A stretch of DNA of 64,000 nt from an uncultured Verrucomicrobiae bacterium (GTDB lineage Bacteria > Verrucomicrobiota > Verrucomicrobiia > JADLBR01 > CALLMV01). Location: contig CALLMV010000024.1 of the NCBI GenBank assembly GCA_938005615.1, forward strand, positions 1 through 64,000. Direction: 5' to 3'. Made by a program: the position numbers and the translations under genes. Under the pieces are notes generated by a model that searched no databases, was not told where the DNA came from, and saw only the letters and a list, made by a program, of their open reading frames with translations. This document shows, piece after piece, positions 59,093-64,000 of this stretch; the stretch's first letter is position 1; each line of letters opens with the position of its first letter.

Positions 59093-59971
59093 CTATATCT
59101 TTTCAACTTCGACTTTGATCTCCAAGCGACAATGAGCAGTTCCCCGGTAGGTGCCTTCCACAGGAGCAACATCCTCGTAATCCCGACCCACAGCCACCTT
59201 TACATAGCGCTCATCGGCGAGTGTGTTATTTGTCGGATCAAACCCAATCCAACCCGCGGCGGGAAGATACACTTCGCACCAGGCATGCGATGCTTGTGCA
59301 CCTACGAGTTTGTCGCGGGGCCCGTTATACAAGTATCCGGAAGCATATCTTGCAGGCAGATTCACCGATCGGCATAAGCCCAGCATGATATGAGTAAAAT
59401 CTTGGCAGACCCCGCGTCTCAGCGCAAATGATTCGGCCACTTCTGCCTTCACGTTGGTTGAACCAGGTTCGTAACGAAAGTTTGTGTGAATCCACTGCAT
59501 GATTGCCAAAGCCTGCCGATATACAGGAACAATACCATCGGTTAAATCAACCGCCTGACGCCAGATTTCTGGCGTTCGGTATACACGCGGGCTGTCATTT
59601 AAATAAGGCCAAGTGCGTTCCCTTACCGCCGGGGCCTGATATATATCTATGCCACCCAGGTAGGCTTCTTCGGGAAGAATCAGTGGGAGATTGTGCACCT
59701 TGATTTGACTTTCGATCTCCAATTTGGAATGCGGCTGACTGATTTCGAAGTGGTGGTTAATGTTTTCGAATAAATCCGTAAATCGATAGAGCCGAGTGGC
59801 AGGAACAACACGAATCAAACTAGACAACGTCCGTTGGTAGGGAAATGTGCGCGGCTCCAGACGCACGGTGTTACTACTCTCACGAACAGGCGCGCCGTAA
59901 AGAAAAGTTGTGCGATGAACTACAGAAAGCTTCGTGCCAGTAGCAGAGTCTGGAATTGGAGAGTTACTCAC
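59093..59971 (-). CDS. Transglutaminase-like cysteine peptidase family protein
   Basis: 292 residues. The catalytic triad of the transglutaminase core is visible: Cys189 in GVCQDFTH, His229 in SHAWCEVY and Asp245 in GFDPTNN. The preceding segment, RTTFLYGAPVRESSNTVRLEP, is the N-terminal beta domain usual for this subfamily. Such proteins may act as peptidases or amidases instead of crosslinking enzymes. The start is a GTG whose last two bases lie in the alpha-E stop (GTGA), so translation is coupled. It is the third gene of the ATP-grasp/alpha-E/transglutaminase cassette. Confidence 0.9.
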   Translation of the reverse strand: MSNSPIPDSATGTKLSVVHRTTFLYGAPVRESSNTVRLEPRTFPYQRTLSSLIRVVPATRLYRFTDLFENINHHFEISQPHSKLEIESQIKVHNLPLILPEEAYLGGIDIYQAPAVRERTWPYLNDSPRVYRTPEIWRQAVDLTDGIVPVYRQALAIMQWIHTNFRYEPGSTNVKAEVAESFALRRGVCQDFTHIMLGLCRSVNLPARYASGYLYNGPRDKLVGAQASHAWCEVYLPAAGWIGFDPTNNTLADERYVKVAVGRDYEDVAPVEGTYRGTAHCRLEIKVEVEKI

Positions 59972-60999
59972 TGCTGCTGCTGTTGCTGCATCTGCCAATT
60001 ACTCGTGCTGTAAGCTGAGCGCAATTCAGTCGGCTGATAACTCTTTATTCGGTCCGGCATCAGCACGTAGCATTCAAACACCGCATCACCAATCGCATTA
60101 AAACGAGCCTGAAGATTATCCAGGAAATGGTGAAGACCAACGGAGAAAGCAACCGAGGTCAACCCATAATTTAAATCTGCGAGCAACTTGCCCGATTCAC
60201 GCTCAGCTCGATTACAAAAGGTGCCCCGTTCACTGCCGGAGATCCTGTGAATACAGACATCCACGCGATCTATGCAAAAACGAACCGACCGCGGAAAATT
60301 CCTCGAGAAGATCAAAAAATTCACCACGCTGGGAGCCGTAACTGAACGCTCAGATGAACGAAATGCCCCCAGTGCACCGCAGGAACGAAGTATGGCCGGC
60401 CAGTGCACCGTTCCCGTGGCAGCCTCCTCATCACCGTCCGAAAGATACGTTACTACATCAAGAAAACGTGTGGTCTTATCTGCGCGCTCCAAGTGGCGTC
60501 CGAGTTCCATGAAGTCCCATTGCTCGCCCCGCATCGTCGTAGATGAAGCAATACCTAGAAACGTCACAGCCGAGCGGCGGATGTTCTCGTAGAAACGCTG
60601 GGGATTACTTACTCTGAGCCATTTGGCTTCCTCAGAGCGAATGTACAAAAATAACCCGTTTAACTCCTCCCACAAATCTTCTGAGAGCTGGTCGCGCACT
60701 GTGCGAGCGTTCTCCCTAGCTTGCAAAATACAAAAAACGATACTATTAGGGTTGCTTTCGTCGTCTGTTAGAAATCTGACGACTTCGCTACTCCCGGCGT
60801 TGTCATAAAGTCTGTTGAAGAGTTCTTCGTCACCTGTGCTAAGAATAATCGGTCTCCAAAACGCGCGCAACCTCTCGCTGTCTAGACTTTCGTTGTCTAG
60901 CAGCATCTGCTGGTTGACATCAATCAACCGGGCTAGATTGTCCGCACGCTCCACGTAGCGCACCATCCAGTACAGTGAGTTAGCTACACGGGAGAGCAT
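59968..60999 (-). CDS. Alpha-E domain protein
   Basis: 343 residues, mostly helical. The start MLSRVANSLYWMVRYVERADNLARL is the family signature, in which the helices form an alpha-E bundle. It is almost always encoded beside a circularly permuted ATP-grasp and a transglutaminase, as here, and may be a scaffold or the substrate-side partner. The last residues form a poly-Gln tract encoded by CAG/CAA repeats (59972-59991). The start ATG is 3 bp after the ATP-grasp stop. Confidence 0.9.
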   Translation of the reverse strand: MLSRVANSLYWMVRYVERADNLARLIDVNQQMLLDNESLDSERLRAFWRPIILSTGDEELFNRLYDNAGSSEVVRFLTDDESNPNSIVFCILQARENARTVRDQLSEDLWEELNGLFLYIRSEEAKWLRVSNPQRFYENIRRSAVTFLGIASSTTMRGEQWDFMELGRHLERADKTTRFLDVVTYLSDGDEEAATGTVHWPAILRSCGALGAFRSSERSVTAPSVVNFLIFSRNFPRSVRFCIDRVDVCIHRISGSERGTFCNRAERESGKLLADLNYGLTSVAFSVGLHHFLDNLQARFNAIGDAVFECYVLMPDRIKSYQPTELRSAYSTSNWQMQQQQQQ

Positions 61000-61002
61000 G
61001 GC

Positions 61003-62544
61003 CTATTTTCGGGTTAATACCCAGGTATCTTTGCTGCCACCGCCCTGAGAAGAGTTGACGACAAGAGAGCCTTTTTTTAAAGCAACACGAGTTAACCCGC
61101 CCGGAACTATTTTTACTCCGTCACCGTAAATAATATACGGCCTTAAATCCACATGGCGCCCCTCCATTTGTCCCTCGCACCAGGTCGGCGCACGTGACAG
61201 CGACATGACGGGCTGGGCGATGTAGTTTCTGGGGTCGCTGAGGATACGTTCGCGAAAATTCGCAATTTCCTCACGCGTCGCGCAGGGTCCAATTAACATG
61301 CCGTAGCCTCCCGATTCATTCGCCGCTTTTACGACCAACTCCGGCAAATGCTCAATGATGTATTTCAGATCTTGCTCCTCACTGGCCAGATATGTCGGCA
61401 CATTCGGCAGTATTGGTTCCTGGCCGAGGTAGTATTCAATCATTTTGGGCACAAAATAATACATTACTTTATCATCGGCCACACCTGTGCCAACTGCGTT
61501 AGCTAGGGCTACGTTACCCGCTCGATAAGCATTCATCAACCCGGCTACTCCCAGGACGGAGTCCTTCCGAAAAACAACCGGATCCAAAAAGTCATCATCA
61601 ATCCTTCGATAGATCACATCCACACGCTGGAGACCGCGTGTCGTGCGCATGTATACTGCCCTGTCGAGCACAATCAGATCACTACCCTCCACGATCTGAA
61701 TGCCCATTTCACGTGCGAGATAACAATGCTCAAAGTAAGCGCTGTTGTAAAAACCAGGCGTTAACAAGACACACACCGGATTCTCATCGCGTCTCGGGGA
61801 GATATACTCCAGCATCTCGAGCAGATCATTAGGATAAGAATCCACGGGGCGCACTCGCATCTCCTGAAAAAGGCCAGGGAAGGCCCGCTTCATTGCATTT
61901 CTGTTTTCCAAAAGGTAGGAGGCGCCAGAAGGGCAGCGTCCATTATCTTCTAGCACGTAGAATTTCCCATCTTTATCACGGATGAGATCAGTGCCGCAGA
62001 TGTGGATGTAAATATCTTTAGGAACATCAAAACCGCGAAACTCAGGTCGATAATGCTTGGCATGTTCCACATAGAATCGCGGAATCACACCATCATTGAG
62101 GATCTGCTGATCGTGGTAAATATCGTAAAGAAATAAGTTCAGCGCTGTGATGCGCTGTGTAAGTCCCGTCTCGATATGCTCCCATTCAGCTGCATCAATC
62201 ACTCGTGGCACGGGATCGAAAGGAAAGATACGCTCCGTTCCGCGTTCATCATGATAAACGTTGAACGTAATCCCCTGGCGCAAGAAGTATAACTCGGCAG
62301 CTGCCTTGCGGTTCTGAAAATCTTTCCTGTCTAGGGATTGCAGCTTTCTGTAAAGTTCCTGACAATGCGTACGCACGGTAAGGTCGTCGGCAAACATCTC
62401 ATCATAAAACTCCCCTGTATCATAATTCGTAAATAGCCCGTTGTGGAAACGAGTGTTCGCTGGCGTTGCTCGATCGCCTGTTGTATCATTGCGGCCCGAT
62501 TCTTGAGAGCTAGAAGTGCTTGAAGAAGGCGAATTATCCACCAA
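61003..62544 (-). CDS. Circularly permuted ATP-grasp protein (DUF404/DUF407 family)
   Basis: 513 residues. The N-terminal part (about 55-110) has the family's [21 protein letters not shown] helix, and the later ATP-grasp core has [22 protein letters not shown] and [13 protein letters not shown]. Comparative genomics has suggested that these form amide or peptide bonds on an unknown acceptor. The start is uncertain: a TTG at 62544 or GTG at 62541 extends the conserved region by about 40 Ser/Asn/Thr-rich residues, so the true start may be downstream. First gene of the cassette, with a 253-bp gap upstream. Confidence 0.9.
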
Positions 62545-62797: not shown

Positions 62798-64000
62798 ATG
62801 GACTTTCCGATCTTTTTCCTCGATGGCATGGGCACACGGCTTCTCATCGGCATCATTGCCGGGATGCACGTGCTGATCAATCACCCGCTGGCAGTTGGCA
62901 TTTACCCGCTGCTGGTGCTGATCGAGTACGTGGCTTTTAAAAAAAACTGGCCCGCACTGGATGAGGTGGCGCGCAAAATTACTTTCGTTGTCTTTATCAT
63001 CACGACCACGGTAGGTGCGCTTAGCGGAGTGGGGATATGGTTGAGCACTTCGCTTGCGGCCCCTTTCGCGATAGGCAGTCTGTTGCGTGTGTTCTTCTGG
63101 GGGTGGTTTGTGGAGTGGCTCGTGTTCATCTCCGAGGTTATTTTGATCATGATTTACTTCCTGACTTGGAAACGTTGGAGAGAAGGGCGTTTAAAAATTT
63201 TGCACATGCGTTTTGGCATCGCGTTGGCTGTGATGAGCTGGCTGACGATGGCATTGATCGTAGCCATCCTTGCCTTCATGATGGATTCAGGCGGCTGGAC
63301 TCAGAATAAAAACTTCTTCAGCGCGTTCTTCAATCCTTTGTATATCCCGCAGTTGATTTTCCGCACATTTTACGCGCTCATGGCAGCGGGGTTCTTTGCA
63401 CTGTTTTGCACGTTCTTCTTCACCAAGAAGGGCACGGAGGAGCGCCGCACGATGGTGACGACCTGCTCGGGGTGGGCGCTTTTTAGCGGGTTGGCTTGCC
63501 TGTTTGGTGGTATCGTTTACATGGCGTTTATCCCCCCGGCGATGAAGGCGCAGATTGATGTGGGCTTGCTCACTATGCAGTTCGCGCAATGGCAGGATAA
63601 ATTTAATGTGCTCTTGTTCGTTACGTGTGTTGCTTTTGTTGTGATCGGATTCTGGGGCTTTCTTGAACCCAAGCATCTGCCCCAATTGGCAATGGTGCTT
63701 CCGTTATTTCTCAGTGTGTGGCTGCTAGGCCACTTCGAACGCGTGCGCGAGTTTATCCGCAAGCCATATGTGATCGCTGATTACATGTATTCCAACGGAT
63801 TCCGCCCTGATGAGCTGGAGTTCTTCCAATACAACGGCATCCTCAAATATGCCACTTACGCCCGCCATTCCGAGGTGACTGAGGATAACTTGATCGACGC
63901 CGGGGAGGATGTGTTCATGCTAACGTGTTCCCGCTGCCACACGACAGGGGGAATTAACGGGGTGCTCAACAAATTCACCGCAATGTATGGCACGGGGGCA
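62798..64000 (+). CDS. CydA-like (cytochrome bd oxidase subunit I) membrane protein with c-type heme motif, cut at the right edge
   Basis: 401 codons from the ATG at 62798 run into the window end. At least eight membrane helices fill the first about 330 residues. The first helix has two histidines (MHVLINHP, His24 and His29) where CydA carries a heme ligand. The third helix pair with GSLLRVFFWGWFVEW resembles the CydA FFLEST region, so the CydA fold is inferred. At 377-381 there is a CxxCH c-type heme motif (CSRCH) in a soluble tail, which classical CydA lacks. Some divergent CydA families carry such a domain. It would face the periplasm and could take electrons from a quinol or cytochrome. 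Confidence 0.7.
   Translation, partial: MDFPIFFLDGMGTRLLIGIIAGMHVLINHPLAVGIYPLLVLIEYVAFKKNWPALDEVARKITFVVFIITTTVGALSGVGIWLSTSLAAPFAIGSLLRVFFWGWFVEWLVFISEVILIMIYFLTWKRWREGRLKILHMRFGIALAVMSWLTMALIVAILAFMMDSGGWTQNKNFFSAFFNPLYIPQLIFRTFYALMAAGFFALFCTFFFTKKGTEERRTMVTTCSGWALFSGLACLFGGIVYMAFIPPAMKAQIDVGLLTMQFAQWQDKFNVLLFVTCVAFVVIGFWGFLEPKHLPQLAMVLPLFLSVWLLGHFERVREFIRKPYVIADYMYSNGFRPDELEFFQYNGILKYATYARHSEVTEDNLIDAGEDVFMLTCSRCHTTGGINGVLNKFTAMYGTGA

Follow-up and report, generated by a model that had tools for sequence, protein, structure and literature searches.

The locus analyzed here lies at the right end of a 64,000-base stretch of DNA (the window), which comprises bases 1-64000 of a contig of 64615 bases, with 615 more bases up to the contig end. 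The source assembly is a 1.67 Mb draft genome that is 75.7% complete. Gene I starts with the ATG at 62798 on the forward strand, and its reading frame was open up to the window edge. On its own contig, the full gene encodes 488 amino acids and stops at position 64264, and 10 bases after it a second open reading frame, gene II, starts at 64275; its first 113 amino acids are encoded before the contig ends. The preliminary description had stated that the right edge hides the rest; only the end of the cytochrome c domain and the second gene lay beyond it. The gene just upstream of gene I is on the opposite strand. A promoter and terminator scan of the upstream region yielded a single promoter-like site, which is on the minus strand; 0.6 such sites were expected, and the hit was given no weight. 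At 59093-62544 on the minus strand, the window contains a row of three genes, possibly a single operon, whose products we take by their look to be transglutaminase-like, alpha-E-like and ATP-grasp-like proteins. The features of gene I within the window are listed below, with conservation counted in an alignment of 111 homologues (115 minus 4 identical sequences).

62798..64000, forward strand: gene I, subunit of the CydA superfamily that ends in a cytochrome c domain, truncated here at the window edge (full gene to contig position 64264)
62867..62869, forward strand: H24, at E. coli CydA H19, aligned by profile (the structural match starts with residue 11 at chain residue 6)
62882-62884, forward strand: H29, second histidine of helix 1, 104/111 homologues
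63113..63115, forward strand: E106, at E. coli CydA E99, by profile alignment of the helix, 111/111
63134..63136, forward strand: E113, at E. coli CydA E107, by profile alignment, 111/111
63359..63364, forward strand: F188-R189, at the place of E. coli CydA H186; no His in the F188 column (0/111), R189 in 111/111
63749..63769, forward strand: E318-x-x-R321-K-P-Y, at E. coli CydA E445-x-x-R448-Q-P-W; E318, R321, K322 and P323 in 111/111
63926..63940, forward strand: CSRCH, c-type heme attachment motif, residues 377-381; C377, C380 and H381 in 111/111

Residues 13-237 of gene I matched the Geobacillus CydA (5doq_A) with an E-value of 6.8e-7 in a phmmer search of PDB sequences, and the gene I profile matched a canonical CydA profile, built from 29 class sequences and the E. 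coli protein, with a probability of 96.6 and an E-value of 5e-10. The Pfam CydA family (PF01654) gave no match to the window protein itself and matched 26 of the 36 aligned family members with an E-value of 0.01 or better. A nucleotide search of E. coli genomes gave no match. In the AlphaFold2 model of gene I (mean pLDDT 84.5, pTM 0.82), eight long membrane helices were observed, which agrees with the many membrane helices noted before; canonical CydA has nine. Foldseek matched the model to 8b4o_A with 4.2e-7. After re-ranking of the Foldseek hits by VIA-align, from which only the presence of a match was taken as evidence, the top ten were all CydA chains (Z 27.8-29.9, about 3 A rmsd, 306-322 residues), the best with a Z of 29.9 and an rmsd of 3.0 over 315 residues, and the next fold was that of alternative complex III subunits, with a Z of 17.4. 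Sequence homology and predicted fold, together with the active-site residues, show that the membrane part of gene I belongs to the CydA (cytochrome bd) superfamily, as the label CydA-like in the preliminary description had anticipated.

Comparison of the heme ligands indicated that the two sides of the CydA membrane domain have had different fates in gene I. H24 was kept in 110/111 homologues, the remaining one having a gap at this position, and together with H29 it accounts for the two histidines reported in the first helix. E318 was equated with E445 by the shared motif and by the structural end points (residue 334 at chain residue 462) and not by residue-level alignment, the E445 region being left unaligned in the profile comparison between gene I and canonical CydA. 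H19 is the axial ligand of an active-site heme, and the residue numbers of the ligands are those of E. coli CydA, in part as given in the preliminary description. According to excerpts of PMC8951039, the active-site ligands of bd oxidases are a conserved histidine and glutamates, and the b558 ligands are a histidine and a methionine. In canonical CydA, H186, M393, K252 and E257 were conserved at 95% or more in the 29 class sequences and E. coli. Among the 111 gene I homologues, His was absent from the H186 column, no Met was conserved at 90% in helix 7, so that an equivalent of M393 is absent, and between helices 6 and 7 no Met, Lys or Glu reached 90% conservation, Lys and Glu conserved to that degree being confined to other parts of the protein. 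The Q-loop region is about 15 residues long in the model, lying between the end of helix 6 at 244 and the start of helix 7 at 260. Of the three ligands proposed earlier for alignment, H19 therefore has its counterpart in H24, and H186 and M393 have none. The retention of H24, E106, E113 and E318 and the loss of H186, M393 and the Q-loop suggest that the oxygen-reducing centre was retained and the quinol side was lost.

The C-terminal part of gene I is a cytochrome c domain. Residues 366-438 matched the Pfam family Cytochrome_CBB3 with 39.9 bits (cut-off 27; 5.5e-10), and residues 363-446 of the model fold as cytochrome c6 (VIA-align, Z 7.8), which confirms the heme motif that had been recognized in the tail. 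M421, located just past the window edge, is invariant (111/111) and is likely the axial (sixth) heme c ligand. Within the window, all open reading frames of 100 amino acids or more contained a total of 2 CxxCH motifs in 28,122 amino acids, and the conservation of CxxCH and of the two helix-1 histidines among the 111 homologues shows that these features are not due to chance. More heme motifs past the right edge had been considered, and the remainder of gene I contains no further CxxCH. The loops after helices 1, 3, 5 and 7 contain 2, 4, 2 and 1 Lys or Arg residues, and those on the opposite side contain 1, 1 and 1. With eight helices and the richer loops on the former side, the C-terminus and the heme c domain would be periplasmic, the side on which heme c is attached; the counts behind this predicted topology are small.

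Downstream of gene I, where the preliminary description had suggested looking for a CydB-like gene, a second and divergent CydA paralogue was found instead. The fragment of gene II visible on the contig scored 25.8 bits against PF01654 (cut-off 26.2), and 26.4 bits in the search of the genome. Profile comparison matched gene I with gene II (E-value 4.4e-11), indicating that they are paralogues, and the predicted model of gene II from a relative (locus L047; pLDDT 79.6) has the CydA fold with a Z of 26.9. The kinship of gene II to CydA was based on this predicted fold and on the match to gene I, because the profile of gene II matched canonical CydA only weakly (probability 7, E-value 0.005). 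CydB was considered as the downstream partner and rejected, since the next gene matches PF01654 and not CydB and the relative's model is nearest to CydA chains; 17 second subunits were searched for family matches, and none of these was to a CydB family.

To compare gene I loci across genomes, we surveyed the best 80 of 164 relatives; some metagenome-assembled genomes (MAGs) were counted in more than one set, so the sets overlap. Gene II, counted over all open reading frames of the 80 loci, was found in 77, and in 72 it was within 700 bases of gene I. Two of the three loci without it are at contig ends. The third (L164), a true exception, has gene I without gene II despite the 3.9 kb that follow, in a MAG that is titled Rickettsia typhi and probably mislabelled. 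CxxCH was present in 55 complete second subunits and absent from 16, with 6 more second subunits being cut, and those without the motif in the 80 loci were mostly alphaproteobacterial. Judging by these relatives, the closest of which is 70% identical, the gene II next to the window, of which 113 residues are visible, would also carry heme c. In an alignment of 84 second subunits, from which those under 330 amino acids and identical ones were removed, H41 (84/84), which stands where CydA has H19, and two arginines do not vary, and at the position of E445 there is a His, H323, in 73/84. Our guess is that gene II binds a b-type heme, and the products of the two genes may form a heterodimer.

The nearest gene I protein, 70% identical, is from a Spartobacteria MAG (L090), in which the pair stands alone, with an unrelated gene after it that runs on the opposite strand. 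In a tree of the gene I homologues, the window sequence pairs with this protein (support 99), and both fall inside a set of 25 sequences (support 99), 17 of which are titled Verrucomicrobiota; the tree was a quick one with long-branch warnings, and as evidence we took from it no more than the starred sets that surround the window sequence. Judged by these nearest relatives, the organism is probably a verrucomicrobium. The family also has cultured hosts, namely Xanthobacter, Flavobacterium sp. CYK-55, Hydrotalea, Kaistia and Pannonibacter.

Gene-neighbourhood analysis of the relatives showed that a RegB-type redox sensor kinase was frequently located near the pair, in 37 of the 80 loci and at a distance of 2 kb or less in 34 of these 37. 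The rate was 35/74 where a flank of 3 kb was available on one side or more and 22/48 where both flanks were that long, and the kinase was found in 8/9 loci of the clade of the same class versus 0/9 distant-clade control loci. RegB-type kinases are regulators of oxidases, and GGxxNP[FV], which we take to be the quinone-sensing motif of RegB, was present in 35 of 39 kinase sequences. In one representative kinase and regulator pair, Pfam identified HATPase_c and, in the regulator, Response_reg with HTH_8. The 64-kb window contains no RegB-type kinase; the neighbours in relatives suggest that the gene pair may be under redox control by RegB/RegA. Copper genes (SCO, PCuAC, YcnI/DUF1775) were found near the pair in 15/80 loci, canonical cydA in 6/80, and CCP_MauG (di-heme cytochrome c peroxidase) in 6/80. 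In a distant sister clade, cytochrome b adjoins gene I in 16 of 25 loci, often with Rieske, and among the 80 close loci no adjacent cytochrome b or Rieske was found, the cytochrome b of L107 being about 6 kb off; the contig of the window can be followed for only 615 bases past its edge. The order at L057:925-11108 is CydA paralogue, Rieske, cytochrome b and heme-c CydA, and by eye this operon continues with ActA-like (5 CxxCH), ActB-like and ActC-like genes of an alternative complex III. At L058:9123-10832, on the minus strand, a 569-amino-acid open reading frame next to a heme-c CydA encodes a CydA-paralogue second subunit to which a Rieske domain is fused at the C-terminus (residues 413-564).

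To place the pair among known enzymes, we compared it with the families of the cytochrome bd superfamily. One of these, the OR-C family, was reportedly described by Murali, Gennis and Hemp in 2021, and we take a heme c motif on a CydA-like subunit to be its mark. In excerpts of the published texts, OR-C is named in PMC13189123, PMC10839748 and PMC11707229, superfamily members with a quinol site are called the qOR subfamily (PMC13189123), and OR-C and OR-N are named beside the quinol-oxidising family (PMC13189123, PMC10839748); in the literature searched, OR-C received a passing mention only. Gene I resembles OR-C in that the CydA active site is kept without a quinol site and in that CxxCH is present on a CydA-like subunit in 111/111 homologues, and it is probably an OR-C member, assigned by described features and not by placement in a tree. 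With canonical CydAB (E. coli bd-I and bd-II and the Geobacillus bd; PDB 6rx4, 7ose and 5doq), gene I shares the fold and the equivalents of H19, E99, E107 and E445, but it has no b558 ligands and no Q-loop, it has eight helices and an added c domain, and its partner is a CydA paralogue and not CydB. OR-N, compared here through its description, is the CydAA' of Nitrospirota and Nitrospinota, with two CydA paralogues and putative cytochrome c oxidation, according to excerpts of PMC10839748 and PMC12342949. The pair is like OR-N in that two CydA paralogues replace CydA and CydB and in the putative oxidation of cytochrome c, and unlike OR-N, as described, in that the subunits themselves carry heme c. 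The gene pair seems to belong to a family that is already named, widespread and apparently uncharacterised. For OR-C, descriptions of heme c on both paralogues, of the RegB link or of the bc-linked sister clade may already exist.

We consider it likely that the pair encodes a copper-free cytochrome c-oxidising oxygen reductase of the cytochrome bd superfamily. The gene pair, the predicted fold, the conserved residues, the heme c motifs and the losses were observed, and from them oxygen would be the acceptor and cytochrome c the donor, and the heme types of the pair would follow in the same way. Gene I would be the catalytic subunit, with the two-heme oxygen-reducing centre of CydA kept in its membrane helices and with neither quinol site nor low-spin heme b558 remaining. 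The C-terminal c domain, which follows helix 8 where the ninth helix of CydA is missing, would be periplasmic, would take electrons from a c-type cytochrome and would hand them on to the active-site hemes. The gene I product would pair with the CydA-fold product of gene II, which would have its own heme c in the clade of the window. Entry of electrons from cytochrome c agrees with the attached heme c domain and with the absence of H186, M393 and the Q-loop, and the earlier suggestion of an acceptor reductase linked to a c-type cytochrome, and not to quinol alone, is supported by the c domain and the loss on the quinol side.

The pair is unlikely to be a bd oxidase that uses quinol, with the c domain serving only as an extra electron store or exit and quinol entering the membrane part elsewhere. 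Every solved CydA chain that was matched is, by its title, a quinol-type bd oxidase, but in the 111 homologues the absence of His from the H186 column and the lack of 90% conservation for any Met, Lys or Glu from helix 6 to helix 7 argue against this explanation, as do the loci of the sister clade, in which gene I adjoins the cytochrome b where quinol would already be oxidised. An enzyme that is not an oxidase at all but a quinol dehydrogenase resembling bc or ACIII, with gene I as its cytochrome c subunit on a CydA-like anchor that no longer reduces oxygen, appears similarly improbable. The best PDB matches of the c domain are cytochrome c subunits of bc1 complexes (8.6e-6), gene I of the sister clade has cytochrome b and Rieske as neighbours, and the second subunit of L058 is fused to Rieske, all of which speak for such a dehydrogenase. 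However, invariant active-site glutamates and an invariant histidine are needless for an anchor, and in the 80 close loci no adjacent cytochrome b was found, the pair being accompanied instead, in 37 of them, by a RegB-type kinase.

Bd enzymes have been linked to NO and peroxide defence, and CCP_MauG genes occur near some of the pairs, which would suit an enzyme that reduces or detoxifies some other small acceptor, for instance NO, peroxide or superoxide. This explanation seems very improbable, since the active-site residues are those of the oxygen-reducing CydA and no NO-specific neighbour was seen by eye among the gene clusters common to at least three loci. Within the preferred reading, a copper-free cytochrome c-oxidising oxygen reductase, we put forward a more detailed arrangement only tentatively: both subunits would be CydA paralogues with heme c, gene II would also bind a b-type heme, gene I would hold the oxygen site, and in the sister clade the heme c of gene I would replace cytochrome c1, giving a copper-free fused Rieske/cytochrome b/bd machine that runs from quinol to oxygen.

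The gene pair bears on the question of whether a bd-type enzyme that lacks the quinol site reduces oxygen and which donor would feed it, and the cultured hosts of the family make this question directly testable. No biochemistry of the gene I subfamily was found in the literature searched, and a 2024 paper (PMC10839748, in excerpt) still calls experimental confirmation of the OR-N complex lacking. If the pair is a cytochrome c oxidase that needs no copper, it would be relevant to respiration where copper is scarce. According to excerpts of PMC12914433, Bordetella pertussis could not grow without its copper-free CydAB when copper was limiting.

In the organism's own genome, the cytochrome c assembly protein PF01578 was not found in the 75.7% that the assembly covers, which the missing quarter may explain. 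The genome contains an NrfD/ActC gene, five further CBB3-type cytochrome c stretches and two COX1 genes, one in a cbb3-type set (C14) and the other after an alternative complex III set (C17), the layout being judged by eye; these make it plausible that the organism has a cytochrome c pool. Among the relatives, L043:8313-8837 contains a putative extra cytochrome c-like piece between genes I and II, with one TAA in the frame of gene I. Distant gene I homologues at L005-L009 and L036 have two CxxCH motifs instead of one, and some of these genomes also have the one-heme type of gene I.
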